Origin: Isoperla grammatica
Lineage: Eukaryota > Arthropoda > Insecta > Plecoptera > Perlodidae
NCBI GenBank assembly: GCA_945910005.1
Contig: OX246746.1
Coordinates: 35,820,638-35,884,637 of the forward strand
DNA: 64,000 nucleotides
Direction of reading: 5' to 3'
In this document: positions 303 through 62,850 of the stretch, in pieces
How the letters are laid out: every line of letters begins with the position of its first letter
Position numbering within the stretch: the stretch's first letter is position 1
Notes under the pieces: generated by a model
The model's database searches: none
What the model was told of the DNA's origin: nothing
What the model saw: only the letters and a program-made list of their open reading frames with translations
Program-made: the position numbers and the translations under genes

Positions 303-472
303 AATCGAAAATTGATGCCAAAATTTGTACTCAAAGAAATGGAATCTCTATACATCGAGGAACTAAAATCATCAATAAATTTACTAATGGCAAATTTGGA
401 ATCTTTGCCAGTCTCAAAAGGTTCTATGGATTCCAAATATGGCCTTCAAAAATTGAAAAGATACAACCACAG
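303..472 (+). CDS. CADPS: CADPS exon 1 of window: region before the C2 domain
   Basis: Encodes residues 1-56 of the recoverable protein plus two bases of a split codon. The translation contains [20 protein letters not shown], then [14 protein letters not shown] and LQKLKR. These align closely with the segment of animal CAPS just N-terminal to its C2 domain. CAPS is a cytosolic protein that primes dense-core vesicles for Ca2+-triggered exocytosis. The acceptor is AG at 301-302 and the donor is CACAG/gtatgt, with GT at 473-474. The entry phase is 0, which fits an upstream exon ending at a codon border. The open frame reads upstream into a Met at 276, but that part is intronic: it lies before the acceptor and has no similarity to CAPS. 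Confidence 0.95.
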
Positions 473-996
473 GTATGTATTTGAAAGTGGACTAGGTGTG
501 ATGTCTAGAACGTGTGTCCCGTATGAGCCTACCCGACCTATCCATGCTGACAACTACCATACAAAATGGCAACTGTTGTTTGTTGTTGTGAATGCTATGT
601 GATTTCAATATCAATGGTATATGTCAATTTCTGTCAGTATAATTACTGCTATACATGTACGTGCACAAAGGCTGCTCTTTTCCTACATATATTTCTCATG
701 CCAGTAAGAAGAAACAATCGCATCACAAATTAGAACTGTTTCATTTCATCATGTTTCTGTGGCAAAATTATACATACTAACTTGACACGAGTTTCAATAG
801 AAGACTTAACTTTCCCAAGTATTGTTTAATATTAATTATATTTGCCCATACAAGGCAAACATGTAATTCATCCTTCGTTTCATCTCGCCACACTTAACAT
901 TGAAGGGTTTTACAGTGGTGCCAGGTAGCACAAGAAATCAGTATTGAGCAGTCTACAAGATATTGAAATAAAAAAAGTTTGCTGCTGCTTTAAGCG

Positions 997-1360
997 AAGG
1001 GTACCTCTTTGTCAAAAAAAGCAGGAAATTTCCATTTCTTAATTATATTTCAAGATTGCAACACAAAATCAAAAATCTGAGTCAACAGCACACTGTGTAT
1101 TGGCAAGCCCTACAGACTGAATGCAATATTATAACTACTAGTATAGCTATTTTGATTATTAAATCTATAATTAATAATAAAATTAATTAGAAACAAAAAC
1201 CGTACTGATTATAATGTGACACAATTTAGAGCATTCAGTATGTAGGGCTTACCAAACCAGTGTGCTGTAGATTCCGATTTTCGATTTCGAAGTCCATTCT
1301 TGAGATATAATTAAAAAAGGAAACTTTTGTGCGGCTTTTGACGTAGAGGTATCTTTCCCT
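997..1360. mobile_element. Fold-back MITE, family A copy 1
   Basis: The ends are imperfect inverted repeats: left GGTACCTCTTTGTCAAAA, right TTTTGACGTAGAGGTATC. The similarity continues inward through AAGCCCTACAGACTGAATGC and its complement near 1220-1250. The centre is AT-only. A second copy of the same family is at about 17476-17834. No coding capacity is seen. The ends are approximate because no clear target-site duplication was found. Confidence 0.65.
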
Positions 1361-4300
1361 GTTACAAGTAACCCATTATCTACTTTTTTTTATTTAAGTA
1401 TTTTGTTTTTGTTTTAATGACATTGTATGTATTTCCAATTTTTTCCATTATCAATCCAAATAATTGGGCATCTCCTACAAATATCCAAAACATATTTTGT
1501 AGTGTTTGAAAACTGCCTCTTCCACATAGAAATAGTATATCAATAACAAAATATTATGTTTGCCACGAAAACCGGCAATGCAATGTTACTGCGGCATATT
1601 CTGTACGGTACTGATAATTAATTGTATAGATTTTTGTCTTTTTATTTTGTCTTTTTTTATTGGTCATGCCTAATGGCATTAAATCCTGTACTGTGTCTTC
1701 ATGTAAATAAATAGATTAACAATATTTAATTGCATTTTTATGGTACTGGCCACTGGGTAGACCCCATATTGAAGCAAATTCATTACAGACTAGTTTTTGC
1801 TTGTTTTGAACATGAAATTACAGCATACTAGTAGGTGGCCCAACTGAATTTTAGTTTATAGAATATAAAATGGAGGGTCAGTTATTCATGTGATTCAATA
1901 GGATACCACAACCAAAAATGCTATACATTACAATTGATCACACAAGACAGTGATTGGCCAATGCCAACTAACTAAATCTTTTATACGTACAGTAGTTAAC
2001 AAGTCTTTTTTCAGCAGAACTATCCTTGGAATCGAGCTTGGTTATCATGTAGGTAGGGATTACCATTACCAGAGGACAAACGAACAAAGTAACTCCGTAC
2101 TACTCTAGCAATGAATCTTGATATTGATTAACCACCAAGGGCATAGTGCACTTATCTAAAAAATATACAAACTAATACTGTCTAAATAAAACATTACGAG
2201 AAAAAAATGTGATAAGGCATATTCTGCTTCTCGTTCAATACAAAGTAGTTTAACTGTCGGCATTCTCTGAATCCCTTCTGTACTCATCCTGTTCTAAATG
2301 CACGAGGCACGGCCGCACGAGGCACGTTTACCAGGACTTCCCTCGTCTTAAGGCCCAATCATCATAGTTTTGACATGTTACTCCACTTTTCAATTCGATT
2401 TTGTCATGTTTGTATCAAGTTAAAACCAACTTTATGTATTTCCTTCGCATCCTGGAATCGTTAATAGCCATTTCCTTACCTTATACAGTATAAAGAATAA
2501 CAAAATCCATTGCCATTTTATGTGAATTACTATATGAATATTGAAAATTGCTATGACCCAAATAGCCCCTGGTACTTCTATTGCAAGGCAAGCCGCATGC
2601 TAGTCTGTAGCTCACATGAGTTAGTTGAAGGGTGTTGTATGGATTGACATTTCGTGCACCAACGATAGCACTTCTTACACTACACTGGAAGCGCTACAGA
2701 AAACAATGAAATATCAGCTGTCGAATTGACCTGTGGCAGAACTCCACACCCAAAACTACAATTGTTGCCCCCACAACCAGGACAACTTAGGGGTGTACGT
2801 ATTACAGTACTCACTACATAAAGTATTGTTTCTACAGTTAGGTTTACATGAACAATTTTCAAGGTTAGGTCACTGTGTTGATGCGTGACAGTGTGTGATA
2901 GCCAGAAGTGCAAAGATGTATGTACAGTACTTAGTTTAAATGTACAGTGTTTGTTACACAATAATCAATACTTTCTTCATTTACTTATTCCTACTTCAAT
3001 GATACTATTAAAAGAATATGTATTGGTTTACAATTTTGTAAAAAGAAGGAAAACCAAGGTTTTTCTTCAGTGGTAACATAGGCAGTGTTAGTCAGTATAT
3101 GTGATAACTTTTAGATCAGTATTTTATGCATTCCTGAACTATTTCAACTCTAAATGAAAGCCAATACTTCATAAAACGCATACAATCAGGTTAGGAAGTT
3201 GACGCGAGGCTAAAGCATGGGTATTCGCATGGCGTTGGAGTTTTGTTGTAAACAGACTCTCGTAGTGTCGATAATGGTTTATTAAGTTGATATGCATCAT
3301 ACTAGACATAGTGCGATAGTTGAAATGTGAGACTTTAAGAATACAATATCCATTAAGAAAAGGAAGACATACACAGTACATATTATGACACTAACAAGAA
3401 AACGGTTCAGCTTCTGAATCACATATTACACCAGTGACTTTATTTATTGGCTGTCAATCAGAGAAATGGAAATCCATGCCATTCATGTTTACATCTGTTT
3501 TCACAAACGGCATCTCTAGTCGACCGTTGATTATCGGTAACTATTTACGCACCGTTTTATTCACGGTCGGAAACGACCTCCACGGGTTATGCTGCTTGAT
3601 ATTCCTTCCCGTCCTGTTGTCTTAACGGGTCGTACGACTACGTGTACAGCCTTGATGGATTTCAAAGTTTCACTGGTTGCAATTATGAATGTAATCTGGA
3701 ATAATTTACCAGATGTTTTAGCGACTTCTCTCTGCAGGAGGGTAGATTTGTATCGTGTGTCGTAGTTGGACGCCGGCATAGTTGGTGTGTGAAAATGTGT
3801 GTATACATTATAAAGGCAGTTGCACTTGCATCCATGTAGCTAGTGTTTGCGAATGCTTTTACACCTGGTTTTGTTTCGTTGGTTTGCCCACTCTGCTGTT
3901 GTTTTTATTTGACGCATGTACTTTGTGTGGCCGTGACATGCAACAAGAGATGTTGGGGATCAGTGTGCTCGTTGCCCATCTGACTCAGTTGACGTTGATC
4001 ACTTTGGTGTCTTTGCAGTCAGCGGCAGATCATAATTAACATACGAGGGTGGAAAGTCATGTGGGCGTAAGTGACACTTCTTCAAAATTGATATGTGGGT
4101 TGTATTTTATTTCATATTTACATGCTTAGGTGCTATATTGTTAAATTGCAAGTTATTTTTATTTTCCTTAATAGAAAAAGTGCAAGTTTGTCATAATAAA
4201 ATAGCTAGAAGTTAGATGTTGTTACATCATGTACTTAATAACTTGAAACTAATTGAGTTTTGAACATTGTTATTCACTTTCATCTACATTCTGAGCCACA

Positions 4301-4647
4301 AAAATCATTTTAAGACTTTTCATTATTCCAATCTACACATTTTAAAAACATTTAATCAAGTTAAAATACCCTGCATTAAATACCTGCTAAAAACACATGC
4401 TTCACAGCACGAACAAATGCTTGGTTGTTTGAACCAGTTATGGTATGTTGCTTCCCCTTATGGCTCTCAACCCTCGCTGGCAATCCCTTGTGGAATGTCA
4501 CTGGTTCTAAATTCTAAATTGTCTCGAAAATAAAATAACACGCATAAAATAATAAGCTAACCGAAAAGAAACGGCTTGTACTTTTAGTTTGTTTTTTTGA
4601 TTTGTTGACTAATAATGTGATGCTCTTTCTTCTTTTGCTGTCCGTAG

Positions 4648-4675
4648 TCGCAGGAGAAGCTCTGTCTTAAGGCAG
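4648..4675 (+). CDS. CADPS: Candidate CADPS microexon (28 nt, possibly alternative)
   Basis: A strong pyrimidine tract (TGCTCTTTCTTCTTTTGCTG) precedes the acceptor TCCGTAG, and the donor is GGCAG/gtagaa. If joined after exon 1 (two bases left over), the 28 nt read SRRRSSVLRQ and end in phase 0. The next exon then has to be entered at its second AG (start 5093, GSLAKLEG) rather than at 5086. Without the microexon, exon 1 joins 5086 and reads RSQGSLAK. Both routes are open. The encoded RRRSS is a basophilic-kinase-like site. This is inferred from splice signals and phase only; I know of no homologous peptide. Confidence 0.4.
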
Positions 4676-5085
4676 GTAGAATGTTGTTATTGTTTTCATC
4701 TGTTGTTGTCACGCTATAACTGCAGCTTTACCACATTTGCTTCATATTTGTGTTTTGCATTATTCACTAATTTGATTATTTTTACTTTATTATAATTTTT
4801 ATTCAGTATTATATATGTATTATTATAATTTAAACATTATTATTGTTACAGTTACAATTATTATTGTTACTTGTATTATTTATTGTTGTTACAATATTAC
4901 ACTTATTAATTATTTTTCACAATTATTTTTGTTTATGCCCGTACAAAGTATTAGCCTTCAAGCAGAGGTTTTTGGATGTATTTGATTTGATTAACTTGTT
5001 ATGTCATGTTGTGTTTGTGTGAGTTTTGAGTAGCCGTACTTGTGTGCGTGTGTGACGGGATGTGATGTCCATATGTGTCCAACAG

Positions 5086-5179
5086 ATCGCAGGGGTCCCT
5101 CGCTAAACTAGAGGGAGATTCTGCTGACAGCGACACGCAGCTGACCAAACTAGATGTGGTGCTCACGTTTCAGCTTGAG
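5086..5179 (+). CDS. CADPS: CADPS exon 2: linker to start of C2 domain
   Basis: Residues 57-88. The first base completes the Arg codon left by exon 1; then comes SQGSLAKLEGD, an acidic linker, and LTKLDVVLTFQLE, which matches the first strand of the CAPS C2 domain (vertebrate form SKSDVVLSFSLE). The acceptor is AACAG at 5081-5085. A second AG seven bases on (5091-5092) would be used if the 28-nt microexon is included. The donor is CTTGAG/gtaact with GT at 5180-5181, and the exit phase is 0. A 35-bp minisatellite begins only about 10-50 bp after the donor. Confidence 0.92.
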
Positions 5180-5189
5180 GTAACTATGG

Positions 5190-6110
5190 GCTGCCCTGAC
5201 AAACACATTCCTTCCTATAGAGCACAGGTCCCTGTGAGAACACATGCTCCTGTGACAAACACGTCCTTGTGAGAACACATGCTCCTGTGACAAACATGTC
5301 CCTGTGAGAACACATGCTCCTGTGACAAACACGTCCTTGTGAGAACACGTGCTCCTGTGACAAACACGTCCCTGTGAGAACACATGCTCCTGTGAGAAAC
5401 ACGTCCCTGTGAGAACACATGCTCCTGTGACAAACACGTCCTTGTGAGAACACATGCTCCTGTGACAAACACGTCCCTGTGAGAACACATGCTCCTGTGA
5501 CAAACACGTCCCTGTGAGAACACATGCTCCTGTCAGAAACGTGCTCCTGTGACAAACACGTCCCTGTGAGAACACATGCTCCTGTGACAAACACGTCCCT
5601 GTGAGAACACATGCTCCTGTGACAAACACGTCCCTGTGAGAACACATGCTCCTGTGAGAAACACGTCCCTGTGAGAACACATGCTCCTGTGACAAACACG
5701 TCCCTGTGAGAACACATGCTCCTGTGACAAACACGTCCCTGTGAGAACACATGCTCCTGTGACAAACACGTCCCTGTGAGAACACATGCTCCTGTGACAA
5801 ACACGTCCCTGTGAGAACACATGCTCCTGTGACAAACACGTCCCTGTGAGAACACATGCTCCTGTGACAAACACGTCCCTGTGAGAACACATGCTCCTGT
5901 GACAAACACGTCCCTGTGAGAACACATGCTCCTGTGACAAACACGTCCTTGTGAGAACACATGCTCCTGTGACAAACACGTCCCTGTGAGAACACATGCT
6001 CCTGTGACAAACACGTCCCTGTGAGAACACATGCTCCTGTGAGAAACATGCTCCTGTCAGAAACGTGCTCCTGTGACAAATTCGTCCTTGTGAGAACACA
6101 TGAAACACGT
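5190..6110. repeat. Minisatellite, 35-bp unit (about 25 copies)
   Basis: The unit is built from two related halves: GCTCCTGTGACAAACAC (17) and GTCCCTGTGAGAACACAT (18). Copies are nearly identical, with C/T and C/G variants (GTCCTTG, GAGAAAC) and a few half-unit changes near 5530 and 6040-6070. The period is not a multiple of three and no stop codon falls in any minus-strand frame, so very long frames appear on that strand. They are a by-product of the repeat. The array starts almost at the exon 2 donor. Confidence 0.95.
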
Positions 6111-7110
6111 TCCTACCACAACAAATATACCCGTGACAAACATGTCTCTGTGACAACACATGTAGGGCCTACCTGTAAACTAACACGTTTCTGTGACAAC
6201 ACATGTAGGGCCTGCCTGTAAGCTAACACATTTCTGTGACAACACATGTAGGGCCTACCTGTAAACTAACACGTTTCTGTGACAACACATGTAGGGCCTA
6301 CCTGTAAACTAACACGTTTCTGTGACAACACATGTAGGGCCTACCTGTAAGCTAACACGTTTCTGTGACAACACATGTAGGGCCTACCTGTAAGCTAACA
6401 CGTTTCTGTGACAACACATGTAGGGCCTACCTGTAAACTAACACGTTTCTGTGACAACACATGTAGGGCCTACCTGTAAACTAACACGTTTCTGTGACAA
6501 CACATGTAGGGCCTACCTGTAAACTAACACGTTTCTGTGACAACACATGTAGGGCCTACCTGAAAACTGACACATTTCTGTGACAACACATGTAGGGCCT
6601 ACCTGTAAACTAACACGTTTCTGTGACAACACATGTAGGGCCTAGGCCTACCTGTAAACTAACACGTTTCTGTGACAACACATGTAGGGCCTACCTGTAA
6701 ACTAACACGTTTCTGTGACAACACATGTAGGGCCTACCTGTAAACTAACACGTTTCTGTGACAACACATGTAGGGCCTACCTGTAAACTAACACGTTTCT
6801 GTGACAACACATGTAGGGCCTACCTGTAAACTAACACGTTTCTGTGACAACACATGTAGGGCCTACCTGTAAACTAACACGTTTCTGTGACAACACATGT
6901 AGGGCCTACCTGTAAACTAACACGTTTCTGTGACAACACATGTAGGGCCTGCCTGTAAACTAACACGTTTCTGTGACAACACATGTAGGGCCTACCTGTA
7001 AACTAACACGTTTCTGTGACAACACATGTAGGGCCTGCCTGTAAACTAACACGTTTCTGTGACAACACATGTAGGGCCAACCTGTAAACTAACACGTTTC
7101 TGTGACAACA
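6111..7110. repeat. Minisatellite, 43-bp unit (about 22 copies)
   Basis: The unit core is CTAACACGTTTCTGTGACAA followed by CACATGTAGGGCCTACCTGTAAA. The spacing was checked at 43 bp (for example 6241 to 6284). The CTGTGACAACACATG segment is shared with the neighbouring 35-bp unit, so the arrays are probably related. One copy near 6637-6655 has a 6-bp insertion that duplicates GGCCTA. Confidence 0.95.
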
Positions 7111-7119
7111 AATTCCCCA

Positions 7120-9112
7120 GGTGTTATTTCCAACACAACTTATCAATGCTTACCAATTGGCTCCATCTTCTAGAATCACCCTATCTAGCTTACAGCATAG
7201 TATCTCCAACTCAACCATCCTAGGCTAACCAATTGGCTCCATATTCTAGAATCACCCTATCTAGCTTTCAGCATAGTATCTCCAACTCAACCATCCTAGG
7301 CTAACCAATTGGCTCCATCTTCTAGAATCACCCTATCTAGCTTACAGCATAGTATCTCCAACTCAACCATCCTAGGCTAACCAATTGGCTCCATCTTCTA
7401 GAATCACCCTATCTAGCTTTCAGCATAGTATCTCCAACTCAACCATCCTAGGCTAACCAATTGGCTCCATCTTCTAGAATCACCCTATCTAGCTTTCAGC
7501 ATAGTATCTCCAACTCAACCATCCTAGGCTAACCAATTGGCTCCATCTTCTAGAATCACCCTATCTAGCTTTCAGCATAGTATCTCCAACTCAACCATCC
7601 TACGCTAACCAATTGGCTTCATCTTCTAGAATCACCCTATCTAGCTTTCAGCATAGTATCTTTAACTCAACCATCCTAGACTAACCAATTGGCTCCATAT
7701 TCTAGAATCACCCTATCTAGCTTTCAGCATAGTATCTTTAACTCAACCATCCTAGACTAACCAATTGGCTCCATATTCTAGAATCACCCTATCTAGCTTT
7801 CAGCATAGTATCTTTAACTCAACCATCCTAGACTAACCAATTGGCTCCATCTTCTAGAATCACCCTATCTAGCTTTCAGCATAGTATCTCCAACTCAACC
7901 ATCCTAGGCTAACCAATTGGCTCCATCTTCTAGAATCACCCTATCTAGCTTTCAGCATAGTATCTCCAACTCAACCATCCTAGGCTAACCAATTGGCTCC
8001 ATCTTCTAGAATCACCCTATCTAGCTTTCAGCATAGTATCTCCAACTCAACCATCCTACGCTAACCAATTGGCTTCATCTTCTAGAATCACCCTATCTAG
8101 CTTTCAGCATAGTATCTTTAACTCAACCATCCTAGACTAACCAATTGGCTCCATCTTCTAGAATCACCCTATCTAGCTTTCAGCATAGTATCTCCAACTC
8201 AACCATCCTAGACTAACCAATTGGCTTCATATTCTAGAATCACCCTATCTAGCTTTCAGCATAGTATCTTTAACTCAACCATCCTAGACTAACCAATTGG
8301 CTCCATATTCTAGAATCATTCTATCTAGCTTTCAGCATAGTATCTCCAACTCAACCATCCTAGACTAACCAATTGGCTCCATCTTCTAGAATCACCCTAT
8401 CTAGCTTTCAGCATAGTATCTCCAACTCAACCATCCTAGGCTAACCAATTGGCTCCATATTCTAGAATCATTCTATCTAGCTTTCAGCATAGTATCTCCA
8501 ACTCAACCATCCTAGACTAACCAATTGGCTTCATATTCTAGAATCACCCTATCTAGCTTTCAGCATAGTATCTTTAACTCAACCATCCTAGACTAACCAA
8601 TTGGCTCCATATTCTAGAATCACCCTATCTAGCTTTCAGCATAGTATCTTTAACTCAACCATCCTAGACTAACCAATTGGCTCCATCTTCTAGAATCACC
8701 CTATCTAGCTTTCAGCATAAGATCTCCAACTCAACCATCCTAGGCTAACCAATTGGCTCCATATTCTAGAATCATTCTATCTAGCTTTCAGCATAGTATC
8801 TCCAACTCAACCATCCTAGGCTAACCAATTGGCTCCATCTTCTAGAATCACCCTATCTAGCTTTCAGCATAGTATCTTTAACTCAACCATCCTAGACTAA
8901 CCAATTGGCTCCATCTTCTAGAATCACCCTATCTAGCTTTCAGCATAAGATCTCCAACTCAACCATCCTAGGCTAACCAATTGGCTCCATATTCTAGAAT
9001 CACCCTATCTAGCTTTCAGCATAGTATCTCCAACTCAACCATCCTAGGCTAACCAATTTGCTCCATCTTCTAGAATCACCCTATCTAGCTTTCAGCATAG
9101 TATCTCCAACTC
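7120..9112. repeat. Minisatellite, 76-bp unit (about 26 copies) with higher-order structure
   Basis: The unit contains AACCAATTGGCTCCATCTTC, TAGAATCACCCTATCTAGCT and TTCAGCATAGTATCTCCAAC, followed by TCAACCATCCTAGGCT. The spacing was checked at 76 bp (7221 to 7297). Diagnostic variants recur in blocks: TCCAAC/TTTAAC, CATCTTC/CATATTC, CACCC/CATTC and TAGGCT/TAGACT/TACGCT. The rare TACGCT variant occurs at 7601 and again at 8057, exactly six units (456 bp) apart, in similar surroundings. Confidence 0.95.
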
Positions 9113-10714: not shown

Positions 10715-11141
10715 CGTATTATGGAACTAAAGTATTGTAGGTTGATTGAACTAAGTTAATGGGAGAAAACTTGCAGAGATCAATGCGAGGACGTGCCAAT
10801 GACGACCATTTTATGATTTTGTATGCATCTTGTGAGTATATTAGAAATTTGATATTGAGAAAATTCAAGCAATTTCGAGTCACACTTGATCCACTTAAAA
10901 TATATAAATATATAAATATATATTTTTAAATTAACCATAAATTGCTTTGTAAAGTGCAACATTTATTTTGGACGAGAGTTTTTTGAAAGTGGAATCGACA
11001 TAAGGGAAAAGTTTTGAGTTGATAAATCAAATGACATGTTTTAAAAGACCAACACCGTGTTTAGGCTGCTTTGAATGAGCTGGAGCACGAAACATGAGGA
11101 GTGAGGACCAACTCATCAGTACCCATTGTCTCTGCCAACAG

Positions 11142-11263
11142 GTTGTTGTTATGGAAGTCAAGGGATTAAAGTCCTTGGCACCCAATCGAATAGTTTACTG
11201 TACTATGGAAGTGGAAGGAGGAGAGAAACTACAGACAGATCAAGCAGAGGCTTCTAAACCCAT
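11142..11263 (+). CDS. CADPS: CADPS exon 3: C2 domain, first half
   Basis: Residues 89-128 plus two bases. It reads [20 protein letters not shown], then [20 protein letters not shown], nearly identical to the vertebrate CAPS C2 segment. The C2 domain of CAPS is known to lack most of the Ca2+-coordinating aspartates of synaptotagmin-type C2 domains, and none stands out here. The acceptor is CCAACAG at 11135-11141. The donor is CCCAT/gtaaga, and the leftover AT is completed by G from exon 4 to give Met where vertebrates have Thr. Entry phase is 0. Confidence 0.95.
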
Positions 11264-13992
11264 GTAAGAGACTTAGAGGTTGTTTCTTATTGGCTATGTT
11301 TAGAAAAAAAAATGTTAGATTATATGCAGTATAAATATTTTCTTTCATTCAAAAACATTAACCATAAGACTGGGTTCCCATACGTTGTTTAGTATTTACC
11401 ATAATAAAAACTACCTTAATCACTACCTCTGTTGTAGTAGTACTTGATCGGCTTTATTTAGCCCACAGGTAGAGATAATGAGATATGGTGACATACAAAT
11501 ACAAATTTTGTTTTGAAAAATACAAATTTCACGTTTTTTGCAATTTGACAGAAATGGTCAAAATGGCTACTAAAAAAAGGGGGGGGGGAGTTATTAAGTA
11601 ATATTACTAAAACAAAGTTTATCTAGTTATATGTTCTGTACTGTCAACTTTCATTATGTAATTACAAGGCTTTACATTTTTAACGTAATCAGCTTTTCTG
11701 TGGAAATGACCGACCGATTTCCGCACTTTGCGAGAAGAATAAAACACGTCCTAAAAGGTCAATTACGCGAGTTAATTTGCATTTTGATCAGTTTTATACA
11801 CTTTCAATCACGATTTTGTGTTATAGGTGAGATTTCGCCATATTCGCGATTTCTAAATGTGGGTTTATCATATCTAAATGATGTTATTCATCGACAACTA
11901 TATGGTAGGGGAAAAAACGTTCATTTAAAAGATTTCTCGAATTTCGGTATCACCATTTTTCACTACCTCTACCCATAGACATAGGACCTGCATGCACATG
12001 TATTTGCAGCAACACAATAGCTTGAGTTTTGGTACAGTATGCTGTTCTTTATACTGTGGTATAAGCAGCAATTTTTACGGGATCTCTTTCTATATATTTG
12101 GACAAAAATATTGTTACTTTTTAGGATTAATACAGAGCAGTCTCCTAATAGTCTTAAGTGCATTATTAGGAGAGAATAGTAGGAGTTTAATTGTAAAGTC
12201 TATAGATAGAGCCCCAAAAAAATTTGCAATCACGAAATCATATGATTGCTGTGAATATTGGTTAATTTGATCAAATATCGGCATTTGATAGCAAGAGTCC
12301 AACATTTTTTAAATTAAAATGCCAAATTTACAAGATTGGCACTAAACACTGCAAATAGTAAAATCTCCTGTTTTATGCGAAACGACTACGAAATCTGGCA
12401 AAACTATTGTCTGAATTCCCATTTAACAGCAAAACTTTTTCTGAAACTTGCACAAAAAGTTGCGTCCTCTTAAAATTAATAAATTTAGTTTGAAATGAAA
12501 TAAATTTTGGACCATTTTTCCATAACGGGGATAAGAATATTAATTTCGCCAACACATTTTACTTTGAGTAAACGTGTGAAGTAGGCCTAGCACGTGTAGT
12601 CACAGATTGTAGACTACATTGTATCACAGCTAAAAATAATAACACTGCTAAATATCGAAACCGTCGATTTTTTAAACCAAGTTTGGGAAAAATAAACCAA
12701 CTTCAACTGGACTCTATCTGTAGATGATATGGCCTAGAAAAATATTATATGCATTCACTGTCTATAGTGGAAACCACTTTTGGTCAGAACCAAACCGGAC
12801 GCTGAAGACAGAGCATCAATTCAACGCGCGCTACTTGAAAACTGTCCTCAGTGTTGCCCAATCCACCCTACCTTCCTTGAAGAGACCCGTGCGTTACGGT
12901 GCATCGCCCCCCTCCCCCGTACCGACAAGGGAGATGCAACACAGCTTTGCGAGACACATCTGCTTATGAAATTATCCTAACTGGCTGGTCAGGAAGAGCC
13001 CCCCACCCCTCACCCCTCGCAGACTGCCGTGACCATGTGCAGTGCATGAAAGTAGACTTTGAACACTATTTTCAAACAACCATGTAGACAAACCCAACCC
13101 CCCTCATAAAGTCGCTTCCAGTTTGGTTCTGACTAAGAGTGGTTTCCACTATAGTGTCTGTCCACCAGTACCAGCTGCAAGCAGTGGCTTATGAATGATA
13201 TGTATCAACGTGTGTCCTAGGTGGGATACGCAAGGAGACTTCTCCACAACGCACCCGTTGCCATATACCCGTTGCACTATAGTGTCTGTCCACCAGTACC
13301 AGCTGCAAGCAGTGGCTTATGAATGATATGTATCAACGTGTGTCCTAGGTGGGATACGCAAGGAGACTTCTCCACAATGCACCCGTTGCCATATACCCGT
13401 TGCACTATAGTGTCTGTCCACCAGTACCAGCTGCAAGCAGTGGCTTATGAATGATATGTATCAACGTGTGTCCTAGGTGGGATACGCAAGGAGACTTCTC
13501 CACAACGCACCCGTTGCCATATATACCCGTTGCACTATAGTGTCTGTCCACCAGTACCAGCTGCAAGCAGTGGCTTATGAATGATATGTATCAACGTGTG
13601 TCCTAGGTGGGATACGCAAGGAGACTTCTCCACAACGCACCCGTTGCCATATACCCGTTGAACTATAGTGTCTGTCCACCAGTACCAGCTGCAAGCAGTG
13701 GCTTATGAATGATATGTATCAACGTATGTCCTAGGTGGGATACGCAAGGAGACTTCTCCACAACGCACCCGTTGCCATATACCCGTTGCACTATAGTGTC
13801 TGTCCACCAGTACCAGCTGCAAGCAGTGGCTTATGAATGATATGTATCAACGTGTGTCCTAGGTGGGATACGCAAGGAGACTTCTCCACAACGCACCCGT
13901 TGCCATATATACCCGTTGCACTATAGTGTCTGTCCACCAGTACCAGCTGCAAGCAGTGGCTTATGAATGATATGTATCAACGTGTGTCCTAG
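11264..13992 (+). other. CADPS: CADPS intron between window exons 3 and 4
   Basis: AT-rich to about 12750, with a G-run at 11580-11588. It then holds an inverted-repeat element (12762-13154) and a tandem array that repeats the intron end and exon start (13147-14034). Nothing else is recognised between 11300 and 12750. Confidence 0.8.
12762..13154. mobile_element. Inverted-repeat DNA transposon relic
   Basis: The terminal inverted repeats are about 34 bp: left CTATAGTGGAAACCACTTTT then GGTCAGAACCAAAC, right GTTTGGTTCTGACTAAGAG then TGGTTTCCACTATAG. The interior (about 320 bp) is C-rich with no recognisable transposase. The outermost TATAG would fit a TA-duplicating (Tc1/mariner-type) element, but this is not certain. 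Its right terminus overlaps the start of the first 128-bp repeat unit. Confidence 0.7.
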
Positions 13993-14034
13993 GTGGGATA
14001 CGCAAGGAGACTTCTCCACAACACACCCGTTGCC
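13147..14034 (+). repeat. Seven-copy 128-bp tandem repeat carrying a CADPS splice acceptor
   Basis: Units start with CACTATAGTGTCTGTCCACC at 13147, 13275, 13403, 13533, 13661, 13789 and 13919. The period is 128 bp, or 130 where CATATATACC replaces CATATACC. Each unit contains GTGTGTCCTAG (GTATGTCCTAG in copy 5), which is the exon 4 acceptor, and then the first 42 nt of exon 4 ([14 protein letters not shown]). In copies 1-6 the exon copy stops after GTTGCC and runs into ATATACCCGTTG and the next unit. Only copy 7 continues into AGCGGTCAAAG and the rest of the exon. Confidence 0.95.
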
Positions 14035-14244
14035 AGCGGTCAAAGTAAAGCTCTACACAGAGAACCCTGGCATGCTGGCCTTAGAAGACAAGGAACTAGG
14101 CAAAGTAATCTTAAAACCAACACCAGTCTCTTCCAAAGTTCCCGAGTGGCATAAAATGAATGTTCCGAAAAACCTCCAAGATCAAGATTTAAGAATAAAG
14201 ATCGCCTGCAGAATGGATAAACCACTAAATATGAAACACTGCGG
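13993..14244 (+). CDS. CADPS: CADPS exon 4: C2 domain, second half
   Basis: Residues 129 (split Met) to 212. It starts [20 protein letters not shown], then has [17 protein letters not shown] and [20 protein letters not shown], ending [13 protein letters not shown]. It matches the vertebrate CAPS C2-PH junction closely. The acceptor used is the seventh and most distal of seven nearly identical acceptors; only from here is the whole exon readable. The donor is TGCGG/gtgagt at 14245. In the functional copy the Thr codon before HPLP is ACA, while the six upstream partial copies have ACG or, in one, an ATG-type change nearby; the protein sequence is unchanged. Confidence 0.95.
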
Positions 14245-14356
14245 GTGAGTTGGATCACTACTATGTAAATGTAAGCATCCACATATTTGTCCCACTGTAT
14301 AGTGTATACTAATATTAATACATTCATTAATTAATTTTGTATATACCGTACTCTAG

Positions 14357-14710
14357 TTCAGCGGTTTTTAACTTTTTCACTCCGCGGACCCCTAAAAAAT
14401 ATTATTTTCAATACGACCCCCATGTTCCACAGAAGAGCAAAACGATTTGAAACAACGAAAAAACATATTTTGTACGAATGCCTCTAAAGCTCTTTGGTTT
14501 GCGGTACCAGCCATTTCCACCAACTTTTTCTCGTTTTTCAGGTCCTCTAGTCTTCGACGAAAGACATCTTTCCATTTTCTTTGAAAAGCTGTATGATTTG
14601 TCTCTAAATGCCTTACCAAGAGCATGTTTCTAAACAAAATTTAAAATTACAAACCCAAACGAAGGAATTCTTTCTAACCATCTGTAGACCCCAGGTTAAG
14701 AACTGCTGCT
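14357..14710 (-). mobile_element. hAT-like (ZBED-type) relic, copy 1
   Basis: The ends read CAGCGGTTTTTAACTTTTTC on the left and CCCAGGTTAAGAACTGCTG on the right, which are imperfect inverted repeats of the CAGNGGTTCT class typical of hAT elements. The minus strand at 14392-14637 encodes LLVRHLETNHTAF and RRLEDLKNEKK. That resembles the end of a BED zinc finger and the following segment in ZBED5-like transposase-derived proteins. A second copy in the opposite orientation lies at 53825-54204. It is too short to be active. Confidence 0.65.
14392..14637 (-). pseudogene. Fragment of ZBED-like hAT transposase
   Basis: An 81-codon open fragment inside the hAT-like relic. The HLETNH motif corresponds to the last zinc ligands of a BED finger; the preceding cysteine pair is missing, so the finger is incomplete. 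It is followed by an EDLKNEKK helix as in ZBED-type proteins. The related fragment at 53914-54195 shares MFRN-LLVRHLETNHTAF and RRLEDLKNEKK. The family assignment rests on motif recognition only. Confidence 0.5.
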
Positions 14711-15688: not shown

Positions 15689-15864
15689 GTACCTGTATGC
15701 TCTTGGTAAAGCAGTATGGAAAAAATGGAAGAAGAGATATTTTGTTTTAGTCCAAGTTTCACAATACACATTTGCCATGTGCACTTATAAGGAAAAGAAG
15801 TCTGAGCCATCAGAAATGATGCAGCTGGATGGCTATACAGTTGACTACATTGAAGCTGCCAGTG
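15689..15864 (+). CDS. CADPS: CADPS exon 5: PH domain, first half
   Basis: Residues 213 (split Gly) to 271 plus one base. It reads [40 protein letters not shown] and [16 protein letters not shown]. This is the start of the CAPS PH domain. The basic run KKWKKR corresponds to the region of mammalian CAPS that binds PI(4,5)P2 at the plasma membrane. Acceptor CTTTTCAG at 15681-15688; donor CCAGTG/gtaaga at 15865. Confidence 0.96.
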
Positions 15865-25325: not shown

Positions 25326-25663
25326 CTACATACATACAAACATACATACATACATACATACATACATACATACATACATACATACATACATACATACATG
25401 CATTCATACATACATACATACATACATACATACATACATACATACATACATACATACATACATACATACATACATACATACATACATACATACATACATA
25501 CATACATACATACATACATACATACATACATACATACATACATACATACATACATACATACATACATAGATACATACATACATACATACATACATACATA
25601 CATACATACATACATACATACATACATACATACATACATACATACATACATACATACATACAT
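25326..25663. repeat. (CATA)n microsatellite, about 340 bp
   Basis: About 84 tandem CATA units with only a few interruptions (CATGCATTCATA at about 25397-25408, CATAGATA near 25565). The tract is open in several frames on both strands, giving MYVC- and HTYI-type repeats, which are not genes. Confidence 0.97.
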
Positions 25664-34241: not shown

Positions 34242-37166
34242 GGGTCATTCCATGGAAGTTCAACCAATGCAGGTTGCCGACTTATTTCTGATATTTTTCT
34301 TAGTTGGATCGTTGATAACTACTTACTTGCAGATAGTAACACTATTTTTTTTATTTTTTTCGGATGAACGGTTTAGAAGTTACGGGCCTTGAAAGTTCAG
34401 TCCGCGTCGCGAAAATGGCAAATTTAAGGGTTTGCGTTTAATAGTGCCACACCTAAAGGGGTGAAGCTTTTGGTTTGATTTTTCCTTTCTAGGATCATAA
34501 TTGAATAGTTCTACTAGAATATGTTTTCAGAAATGTGATACTTAACATGCAAGTAGTCCAAACTGAAGGTCAAAGTCATCATATTAATTTGTTGTTTTTG
34601 CACATTTTGGGGTGTAATAACTCTGAGGGGGTTGAAGATAACCATCCAATTCTTTTTGCATAATATACTCTTTAGCCTTGTGTAATAGGAAAAAAATACA
34701 TTTTTTTGTTTTTCTGTACCCTTCATACCCAAAAATATTCCCAAAATGTAGCAAAAGTCAAATTTTGACATTTTCAAGGTCAAGTTATAGAAAAGGGGTA
34801 ACTTCAAAAAAATTGAAAATTTGGTGTTTTGTTTAACTATCTGCAAAGAACAAAACTGCCAAATATTTATGTGTTACTCAATCTGGTTTAGGAGTTACAG
34901 CCCCTCTAAAAAGGAAGTAATTCGCCCACTTTACCAGTAGGCGTACAGTGTGATTCTCAAATATAAAACACCATTTAGGCCAATAATTTACCAAATTACC
35001 TTTAAAAATAAATTAACATGTCTTTTCCATGTCCCGAAAATCCAGTTTACGGGGGTGGAAAAAGGGGGTGATTTTTTGTGAGGACACCAATATCTCAAAA
35101 ACCGAAGATGTTACAGACGTGAAAATTGGTGGTTAGATTCTCCTTCAAAAATAATGGAAAAGTACATGTTTTACCATTTTCCTAACATCCTGTTAAGAAG
35201 GATGAAAAGGGGTGGTGCTAATACTAAATTCACCCTCACGTTTTCACTCCTTCCCAACTGGATTTTCAGAAAATGGTAAAACTAGTGACTTTTAATTATT
35301 TAAACTGAATTACCTAACTATCCTTAATTATCTAATCTAATCTAAATGCTGAGTTTTTTGTCTATAACATTTTCAGTTTTTAAAATAAAATATTCACCAC
35401 CTCCTTTTTAACCCCGTGTTCACTTGTCTTAAATTGATTTCAGAAAAATTGTAAAACATGTTTATTTAATCTTAAAGAAGAATCTAAATACCAATTTTCA
35501 CATCTGCAACATCATCCATTTTCGAAATATACTTATGCTCAAAAAATAATTCACCCCCTCTTGTAACCCCCGCCCCTCTAACTGGATTTTCGAAAATTTG
35601 TAAATCAATTGTTTACATATTTTTAAATGAGTTTGTAAATAGTAATACCAAATTTCACGACTGTAACATGTTCCGTTTTTTAGTTTTAAAAAATCACCCC
35701 GTGTTTTCACCCCCTTAACTGGATTTGCAAAAAATATTCAAATACTTGTTTTTTATGTTTCAAGAAATATTTATACAAATTTTCAAGCCTTTACATAGCG
35801 TTTACGTTTACCGTTAACGATTTTGGAGGTAGGGCCTATAGGAATCTTAAAAAAAAATCCACCCCCGCTTCTCACCCCCATTAACGGGATTTTCAGAAAA
35901 TGGTATCACACGTGTACTACTTTGTTTTTTAAGGTTAATCTAAATATCAATTTTTCACGGCTATATCAGTGTCGGTTTGTTAGATACCGGTACAAGTATC
36001 CTCATTTTAAAAAACTACCCCCTTTTTCACAACCATTTCAAACCTGCCCTAGCTCATACAAGTGCAACCTTTTTGAAAAATGGTAAAATACGCGTTTCTT
36101 TATGAAGAAGAATCTATGTACCAATTTTCACATCTCGAAATCTTCGGTTTTAGAGATGAAAAAATTCACCCCCTGCACTGCACCACCCCTTTTCATCCTT
36201 CTTAACAGGATGTTAGGAAAATGGTAAAACATGTACTATTCCTTTATTTTTGAAGGAGAATCTAACCACCAATTTTCACGTCTGTAACATCTTCGGTTTT
36301 TGAGATACTGGTGTCCTCACAAAAAATCACCCCCTTTTTCCACCCCCGTAAACTGGATTTTCGGGACATGGAAAAGACATGTTAATTTATTTTTAAAGGT
36401 AATTTGGTAAAATATTGGCCTAAATAGTGTTTTATATTTGAGAATCACACTGTACGCCTACTGGTAAAGTGGGTGAATTACTTCCTTTTTAGAGGGGCTG
36501 TAACTCCTAAACGAGATTGAGTAACACATAAATATTTGGCAGTTTTGTTCTTTGCAGATAGTTAAACAAAACACCAAATTTTCAATTTTTTTGAAGTTAC
36601 CCCTTTTCTATAACTTGATCTTGAAAATGTCAAAATTTGACTTTTGCTACATTTTGGGAATATTTTTGGGTATGAAGGGTACAGAAAAACAAAAAAATGT
36701 ATTTTTTTCCTATTACACAAGGCTAAAGAGTATATTGTGCAAAAAGAATTGGATGGTTATCTTCAACCCCCTCAGAGTTATTACACCCCAAAATGTGCAA
36801 AAACGACAAATTAATATGATGACTTTGACCTTCAGTTTGGACTACTTGCATGTTAAGTATCACATTTCTGAAAACATATTCTAGTAGAACTATTCAATTA
36901 TGATCCTAGAAAGGAAAATTCAAACCAAAATCTTCACCCCTTTAGGTGTGGCACTATTAAACGCAAACCCTTAAATTTGCCATTTTCGCGACGCGGACTG
37001 AACTTTCAAGGCCCGTAACTTCTAAACCGTTCATCCGAAAAAAATAAAAAACAATTGTGTTACTATCTGCAAGTAAGTAGTTATCAATGAGCTTAATTTG
37101 AAAAATATCTCAAACATGTCAGCAACAAATTAATTCCAAATTGGTTGATTTTTCATGGAATGACCC
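34242..37166. mobile_element. Fold-back (long inverted repeat) element, 2.9 kb
   Basis: Two arms of about 980 bp (34242-35218 and 36180-37166) are near-perfect reverse complements, ending GGGTCATTCCATGG and CCATGGAATGACCC-like termini, flanked by ACAG on both sides (34238-34241, 37167-37170). The spacer of about 960 bp is itself made of degenerate units with CACCCCC, TAACTGGATTTTC and AATCTAAATACCAATTTTCA motifs. Each arm has the same 110-codon open frame in mirror positions, with no recognisable protein content. Confidence 0.88.
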
Positions 37167-44403: not shown

Positions 44404-45676
44404 CAGTGGCGTAACTTGCTTAGTGCGGGCCCCCCCGCGAATGTAATTCACTTGGGCCCCCCTATAATCAATAGACAATAATCAATGGTCGGTGTGGGAG
44501 GTTACGTCCAAGCTAGGCGGCCCGGTGGGGAGGGGTGAAGGGGGGGGGGGGGTTACATAGTAATATTCATTCATATATTAATAATTTATTTACTCACCAA
44601 GCAGTCCTAGAAGATGGATAATGTTCTTAAAAACATCGCCTCTCACTATCTTTGTCGCGTGGAAAAGATATATTTTTGGGTCTGCAAGATCCATGTTTAA
44701 TAATCAAACGTTTTGTGTTAGAGTCTAGAATATTAGTAGGAAAATTAGCCCTGTCTGTAGGATATTGAACTTTATTATCGAACGTAACCGGCTCAGTAGT
44801 CTGATTGTGGTCACTTACTGAGATGGGGTGAGAACAACACGGGTCACTAACAGTTTCGTTTACTTCCGAAATGTCAATTTCATTTGTTTGTACGTTAGAA
44901 GATGTTGAAAAATAGGAATTGATCTTCGGCAGTTTTTTTATTTCCTTTTCTCTTTCCAACTTCTTTTTTATTTTCGCACAACCACTTTCACTCCGATAAC
45001 TCATCGCATCGTTATTCTTACACTGAACTGCTCCTTATAGTAACTTACACAAAACACAAGTTACACAGCACGGCACAAACACATATTTACAATTTTATAC
45101 TAAAACCACATAGTTAGGCCTACTATAAACACAAATTGCAACGCAAAATATAATAACAGTTTTACATGCGCGAAAGTCAAAAAACTTCCACGACCCTTCA
45201 CCGAGAAAGTTAGCGCGATACTAAAGAAGGGTAGCGGCTGGCGAGCGACGGATTCTTCGTCACTCAAGGAAAAGACCATATGTCAACTAACAATTGTGGT
45301 CAACATTTTGGTGGGCATCCCTATAATTGGGGTTTGCTTTGAAATTGCTAAATACGGAAAAACTTATTTTCTCCCCGAGTGGAGCTACACATGAAACAGC
45401 AGTGCATTTAGCACAAAGCAGCTCGCCTTCACGGAAACCACACCCTGGGACGAGGTAGTTTCCAAGAAATATGTGAATAACACTCGTTGTTCCGTTTTTT
45501 GTTTACAATTTTTTTTGTGACACGTGACACAGGGACGTATTCAAAACAGATTAGTTCAATGCATGGCAACAAAGTCTTACCAAAGACCACACACTATCAG
45601 GGGCCCTTGCGGGCCCCTAAAACCCCCGGGCCCCCCCGCGGTCGCGGGGGCTGCGGGGGCGGTAGTTACGCCACTG
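44404..45676. mobile_element. hAT element (1.27 kb), inserted in the minisatellite
   Basis: A perfect 8-bp duplication, GGTCCTAG, at 44396-44403 and 45677-45684, is made from the repeat unit itself. The termini are CAGTGGCGTAACTTG and TAGTTACGCCACTG. Subterminal GGGCCCCCC-type tracts are present on both ends. It encodes an N-terminal transposase fragment on the minus strand (44627-45004); the remainder of the transposase is deleted. Confidence 0.93.
44627..45004 (-). pseudogene. N-terminal part of a hAT (ZMYM/DUF4371-like) transposase
   Basis: A 125-codon open frame starting MSYRSESGCAKIKKKLEREK, with KLPKINSYFSTSS (a basic stretch followed by a PIP-box-like segment), a Ser/Thr-rich linker, and YPTDRANFP, IIKHGSCRPKNISFPRDKD. 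The last part matches the region of ZMYM1-like hAT proteins where a LI-x-x-GP-CQP-x-x-FPRD motif precedes the TTF-type zinc finger. The frame stops soon after, before the zinc finger and catalytic domain, so this is a deletion derivative. It sits inside the 44404-45676 element. Confidence 0.65.
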
Positions 45677-60328: not shown

Positions 60329-60441
60329 ATGACCTCAGTGGAGAGGTTATGGTTGCACCTGGTAAGAAGCTGGAAGACTTGATTCATCTGGCCGAACTTT
60401 GTGTGGATCTTCTCCAACAGAATGAAGAACATTACGCTGAG
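60329..60441 (+). CDS. CADPS: CADPS exon 11: last exon in window
   Basis: Residues 540 (split Asp) to 577. It reads DLSGEVMVAPGKKLEDLIHL and AELCVDLLQQNEEHYAE, matching the CAPS segment that leads into the Munc13-homology (SNARE-interacting) region. Acceptor TTTTCGTGCAG at 60318-60328; donor GCTGAG/gtaaga with GT at 60442. The direct join from exon 10 corresponds to the form without the longer vertebrate alternative insert. Exit phase 0; the next exon is not found in the window. Confidence 0.95.
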
Positions 60442-62399: not shown

Positions 62400-62850
62400 A
62401 CTCGATTTGATATTTACAAGATGATTGAAGGAGATTTGTATCGCCTCTATGCTGCACTAAACAGCCACATGGCTTGCAATGATTCCATGTCTTGATATAT
62501 TTACGAGATGATTAAAGGGGATTTGTATCGCCTCTATGCTGCACTTAACATCCACATGGCTTGCAATGATTACCGTACATGTCTTGATATATTTACGAGA
62601 TGATTAAAGGAGATTTGTATCGCCTCTATGCTGCACTAAACAGCCACATGGCTTGCAATGATTCCATGTCTTAATATATTTACGAGATGATTAAAGGAGA
62701 TTTGTATCGCCTCTATGCTGCACTAAACAGCCACATGGCTTGCAATGATTCCATGTCTTTATATATTTACGAGATGATTAAAGGAGATTTGTATCGCCTC
62801 TATGCTGCACTAAACAGCCACATGGCTTGCATTGATTACATGTCTTGATC
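62400..62850. repeat. Tandem repeat, 87-bp unit, five copies
   Basis: The marker TCGCCTCTATGCTGCACT occurs at 62441, 62528, 62620, 62707 and 62794, giving spacings of 87, 92, 87 and 87. Other unit parts are TATTTACGAGATGATTAAAG and CCACATGGCTTGCAATGATT. The second unit has a 5-bp insertion (ACCGT). The first unit is open for 81 codons (62250-62495), but later units carry a stop, so coding is unlikely. Confidence 0.93.

Follow-up and report, generated by a model that had tools for sequence, protein, structure and literature searches.

Seven tandem copies of an intron–exon boundary beside a transposon-like end in a hexapod-like CADPS gene

In the window (the whole 64,000-nt stretch of DNA analysed here), the end of one intron of a CADPS gene and the start of the following exon stand seven times in a row. 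We think it rather probable that this array is a mirage-type boundary minisatellite, seeded at a transposon end and carried mainly as tolerated baggage rather than as a regulator. Beyond what an earlier note on this DNA had described, the array has a transposon end at the start of its unit, a filler copied from the exon, a duplication of a three-copy block, and AG|GT boundaries that are potential donors. It amounts to a natural contest among seven near-identical 3' splice sites before one exon, a situation that ordinarily has to be engineered in constructs, and the rules of proximity and exon definition can be tested on it directly.

The boundary array and its host gene

Tandem Repeats Finder reports a minisatellite at 13147-14035 (period 128, 6.9 copies, 98% matches, score 1714), a result that rules out an ordinary chance repeat; the best score for the array, 1750, belongs to a period of 386 bp. 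The seven copies that the earlier note had placed here are thus confirmed, and all seven of its exon-start positions (13221, 13349, 13477, 13607, 13735, 13863 and 13993) are exact. Each of them carries the acceptor boundary CCTAG|GTGGGAT (sites CCTAGGTGGGAT), and every unit spans the intron–exon boundary, taking in 74 nt upstream of the acceptor site and 42 nt downstream. The units lie on the plus strand: copies 1 (13147-13274), 2 (13275-13402), 4 (13533-13660) and 5 (13661-13788) measure 128 bp, copies 3 (13403-13532) and 6 (13789-13918) measure 130 bp, and copy 7 (13919-14035) is the authentic boundary, running on into the full exon. A unit opens with CACTA, 5 nt from the end of an inverted-repeat element, and a TA that is probably the target-site duplicate; the intron then contributes 67 nt and the exon 42 nt, and a filler of 12 nt, ATATACCCGTTG, closes the unit. 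This filler is the same at all six junctions, apart from an extra TA in copies 3 and 6, and is absent from the true exon.

Over the 116 positions that they share, any two copies differ by 0-3 bases: copies 1, 3, 4 and 6 are identical, copy 5 has two private substitutions, and copies 1-3 equal copies 4-6 except for three substitutions. Such near identity makes the copies too young for a test of selection. The G+C content of the array (49%) is exon-like (44% in the following exon, 32% in the upstream intron) and hence of no help in telling the copies from the exon. A search for structured RNA at 11000-14500 found no Rfam family at the gathering threshold.

The attribution of the gene to CADPS is borne out by the exon that the array precedes (exon D, 13993-14244, plus strand, 252 nt, donor TGCGG|GTGAGT). 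This encodes the C2 domain of CAPS: its product matches PF25341 (C2_CAPS) at 8.4e-39 and PDB 7vs3, 'Calcium-dependent secretion activator 1', at 5e-37. With a CADPS sequence as the tblastn probe, exon B (donor at 5179), exon C upstream of the array (11142-11263, phase-2 donor CCCAT|GTAAGA) and exon E, the next after D (15689-15864), were placed on the same strand. The nine exons B to J have GT-AG borders and are joined in the homologous frame. A further CADPS match on the plus strand at 303-472 (exon A) has a homologous frame that does not fit exon B onward, so an exon or a border appears to be missing from the model between A and B (303-5179); another match, near 60349, was excluded from the model. 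The label "exon 4" that had been given to the array's exon holds only in the sense that it is the fourth CADPS exon recognised in the window. Between exons B and C there are also three minisatellites in close succession (5224-9112, with units of 35, 43 and 76 bp), which begin 45 bp past the exon B donor.

The relatives of the gene were sought with the model of exons B to J (480 aa). Its best matches in BLAST against the protein database are insects (Diploptera, 92.3% over 273 positions; Ephemera, 91.8% over 400), and its identity to Scylla is 79.7% over 474 positions. A tree of 25 homologues chosen by hand groups the model with a mayfly, at weak support (0.684). To judge by these protein comparisons, the gene is hexapod-like. 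A lancelet host, raised by the papers on mirages discussed below, was rejected in view of the insect best matches of the model (roughly 92% identity to a mayfly and a cockroach) and of its weakly supported place beside the mayfly.

The inverted-repeat element and the origin of the array

An inverted-repeat search reveals a MITE-like element of 393 bp at 12762-13154. Its terminal inverted repeats are 41 nt long (12762-12802 and 13114-13154) and 90% complementary, a probable TA target-site duplication lies at 12763-12764 and 13152-13153, and blastn, at the setting used, found no second copy within the window by which its ends could be confirmed. The left edge of the array, 13147, falls inside the right terminal repeat of this element, a proximity of breakpoint and transposon end that was noticed post hoc. 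The 12-nt filler, taken with the next two bases, contains a 9-nt match, ACCCGTTGC, to the 42-nt exon part of the unit; of 200,000 14-mers drawn at random from the window (13100-14100 skipped), about 0.07% had a match as long.

These features are consistent with an origin in one repair-like joining beside the transposon end, followed by expansion. The element would first have inserted 67 nt upstream of exon D; since the unit holds the element's last bases, the duplication is most simply placed later than the insertion. A break at or near the right end of the element may then have been repaired by fusing the first 42 nt of exon D back onto the transposon end, with 12 nt of templated filler in between, which would have duplicated the acceptor. 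Repair by polymerase theta or by template switching leaves a recopied neighbourhood of the breakpoint. Unequal exchange or slippage could subsequently have brought the array to seven copies, in an expansion that would include one duplication of the three-copy, 386-bp block. Considering that the extra TA recurs in copies 3 and 6 and that only three substitutions separate copies 1-3 from copies 4-6, this block was probably duplicated late, and the duplication suggests past instability of the copy number.

It is very unlikely, in our estimation, that the array is instead an assembly artefact or a collapsed or expanded repeat, the genome having fewer copies or just one. The array is known from a single assembly, and the draft version of one lancelet mirage, BflGb6, is described, in the portion of the literature consulted, as looking aberrantly assembled. 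Against this, the private substitutions, the shared 2-bp indel and a filler that is absent from the true exon all fit real evolution.

Splicing across the array

As the earlier note had it, only the seventh acceptor leads to a complete exon: copy 7 alone enters the 252-nt C2-domain exon, and among the seven acceptors it alone gives an open reading frame. When exon C is joined to the other acceptors and read on to the exon D donor, the reading runs into a stop: acceptors 1, 2 and 5 reach it after 35 codons, acceptors 3 and 6 after 21 (by way of the extra TA) and acceptor 4 after 18 (by way of a substituted first base in copy 5). The stop that had been predicted about 35 codons in is therefore right for three of the six upstream acceptors and too late for the others, and the predicted reading YTRCTIVSVHQYQ likewise appears in full from three of the six. 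An early stop, no more than 35 codons past exon C, also arises in each of the 15 combinations tested in which a pseudo-exon precedes copy 7. Pairs of units that are in frame (128+130=258) were considered and rejected, the first unit already containing a stop. The fault at exon A does not affect these counts, since all of the first stops lie after exon C and the frame is homologous from exon B. Messengers with such premature stops are expected to decay.

The strength of the splice signals was scored with own-gene matrices, that for acceptors being built from nine sites with exon D excluded; the scores rest on ten sites, the borders of exon A included, and are a guide only. The array acceptors score 3.68, and that of copy 5 scores 4.12. 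The nine other CADPS acceptors range from -1.8 to 10.18 by leave-one-out, five of them falling below 3.68, and 9.8% of the 3,382 AGs in the window reach that value. The upstream acceptors had been called good-looking, which is a relative term: they score as high as the real one, but on the same matrix five AGs within intron C-D (11469, 12993, 12606, 12010 and 12170) score higher than any acceptor of the array. Each copy also has a candidate branch point, CTTAT, 30 nt ahead of the first exon base, and the first AG downstream of it is that of the acceptor.

All seven copies carry AG|GT, and every acceptor is thus a potential donor as well. Its donor score is 5.86 (TAG|GTGGGA), or 5.21 once it is joined to exon C, against a leave-one-out range of 4.48-10.99 for the ten modelled CADPS donors and 9.99 for the donor of exon D. 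In the window, 3.6% of the 3,689 GTs score at least 5.86. Twenty-one of the 206 AGGT sites, the seven of the array included, reach both of the array's scores; as these scores themselves served as thresholds, nothing more follows from the count than that sites of this sort are not rare. The bases GTGGG are imposed by the codons for Met-Trp-Asp. Of the 25 homologues in the tree, 18 have letters at this place (the other 7 being gapped), and 11 of those 18 carry M-W-D, namely all 9 of the named arthropods and 2 other sequences; in the remaining 7, none of them an arthropod, a different residue precedes the Trp. Being fixed by its codons, GTGGG does not speak for selection on a donor.

Which of the seven acceptors is used would, on the reading that we prefer, be decided largely by the exon. 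Where introns exceed 250 nt, splice sites are recognised across the exon and the site closest across it is favoured, according to the sections consulted of PMC9225289. Exon D, flanked by introns of 2,729 nt (C-D) and 1,444 nt (D-E), is probably recognised in this manner, and copy 7, nearest to the real donor and giving an exon of 252 nt, would be favoured over copies 6 to 1, with which the exon would measure 382 to 1,024 nt. Stray use of copies 1-6 would end in a premature stop and probable decay, leaving at most a low-level leakage of the poison-exon kind, and mostly normal mRNA would be expected, as in the reported mirages. Several points weigh on the other side. Acceptors 1-6 score like the real one, each has its branch-point candidate, and the G+C content of the array is exon-like. 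In addition, the same source describes an overall upstream preference among 3' splice sites that is reduced between long introns, and in those sections a reversal is not stated, so that exon definition need not be decisive.

Of the other ways in which the cell might deal with the array, it is unlikely that the array corrects itself. Exon C would then often join copy 1, as the acceptor made first; either AT|GTGGGA, regenerated by that join, or a later AG|GTGGGA would act as a donor, and the block up to copy 7 would be removed in one or several steps to give normal mRNA. The AG|GT in every copy and the branch-point candidate that each copy has of its own are in keeping with this. The 772-nt block at 13221-13992 (plus strand) begins with GTGGGA and ends with CCTAG and would be a GT-AG intron if copy 1 served as acceptor and then as donor; a second splice could thereby rescue an mRNA that has wrongly used copy 1. 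The tandem AGGT sites of human UBC do serve as both donor and acceptor, according to parts of PMC10809524. Nevertheless, the donor is weak in comparison with most of the range of the modelled ones, and a GTGGG dictated by codons gives no signal of selection for it. We consider it quite unlikely that the array is, as the earlier note proposed, a poison-exon regulator, in which copies 1-6 would be used at a meaningful rate dependent on copy number and the output of CADPS lowered by stops and decay; that note's step from six upstream acceptors to a cell that must skip them, or tune CADPS through them, goes beyond what the sequence shows. All six upstream acceptors and all 15 combinations do lead to a stop within the limit of 35 codons, and the acceptor scores match that of the real site, with copy 5 slightly higher. 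Yet the known mirages are reported to leave splicing undisturbed, and the 0-3 differences per 116 positions do not suggest selection.

A broader proposal, which we rate as improbable, is that self-repair by a second splice lets the array expand freely within an important gene and that the copy number, which might vary somatically, sets CADPS by degrees through the balance of second splicing against decay. If a self-repairing, transposon-seeded array of this sort were real, boundary minisatellites would be a general feature of animal genes and not a lancelet oddity.

Relation to known systems

The tolerated-baggage reading leans on the closest parallels, the lancelet "mirages", a term for which later papers cite a 2002 paper on Adh. 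The BflGb6 mirage has 150-160-bp units made of an intron end and an exon start, one haplotype having 6 of them and another 3; regular splicing is suggested by RT-PCR, and the mechanism that generates mirages is termed unclear in these passages of the globin paper (PMC3087553). Mirages of Adh and troponin C occur likewise in lancelets, and imperfect repeats of 60 and 108 bp over splice sites of lancelet PGBD5 have been compared to them (PMC3902484, in part). For lancelet Adh, variation in copy number is reported that extends to somatic variation. As far as these excerpts go, the lancelet cases (Adh3, the globins BflGb6/BflGb9 and troponin C) resemble the CADPS array in their intron-end and exon-start units, in the authentic copy beside the full exon and in AG/GT signals in many units. 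The CADPS array indeed has tandem units that span the boundary and, at its edge, the authentic boundary continuous with exon D. The two differ in that the hosts in the excerpts are cephalochordates, whereas the array here lies in a hexapod-like CADPS, and in that a transposon end at one edge with a templated filler is a cause not mentioned in those excerpts. A cephalochordate host is the reported range of mirages and not part of their definition, and a hexapod-like host gene would therefore mean that this kind of array is not confined to lancelets. Mirages would thus be extended to a hexapod-like arthropod, and the break at a transposon end, mended with templated filler, would supply a concrete origin. 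No arthropod case of repeats over splice borders was found among the matches listed in a limited open-access literature. One crustacean paper reportedly deals with tandem repeats in Daphnia (PMC3152781).

Tandem duplication of an AGGT-containing segment has been put forward as a source of introns (Rogers 1989), with ATP2A1 and a potato RdRp as cases in the portion consulted of PMC4974935. Here too an AG|GT has been duplicated, block 13221-13992 is a GT-AG interval, and that block could be an intron with the protein unchanged; it abuts the existing intron C-D and so creates no new intron position. For the idea that introns arise from a duplicated AGGT, the array would offer an early stage. Human UBC likewise has an AGGT in each unit, any multiple of which is a legal GT-AG interval, but its units are coding sequence of a length divisible by 3, whereas those of CADPS, of 128/130 nt, contain stops and are candidates for dual use (PMC10809524, in part). 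The ratchet points of recursive splicing also juxtapose an acceptor and a donor; in the sections consulted of PMC8605326, the donor of a ratchet point is as a rule stronger than its downstream competitor, whereas the array's donor is weak and imposed by codons. A ratchet point was set aside as the main reading for this weak, codon-dictated donor on the ten-site matrix, where 5.86 or 5.21 stands against 9.99 for the exon D donor.

Several other repeats were seen in the window. An element at 44404-45676, which we take to be hAT-like, has the ends CAGTGGCGTAACTTGC and GTAGTTACGCCACTG and lies inside a minisatellite of 36-38 bp; both of its flanks read GGTCCTAG, an 8-bp target-site duplication, and its minus-strand ORF at 44630-45034 had no Pfam match at E 0.01. 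At 34347-37051 there is an inverted repeat with 872-nt arms that are 99% complementary and 961 nt apart, which looks like a foldback element or a recent inverted duplication. Finally, a (TACA)n microsatellite of 84 units (97% matches) occupies 25327-25663, and a tandem array of five copies of an 87-bp unit (93% matches) lies at 62410-62849.
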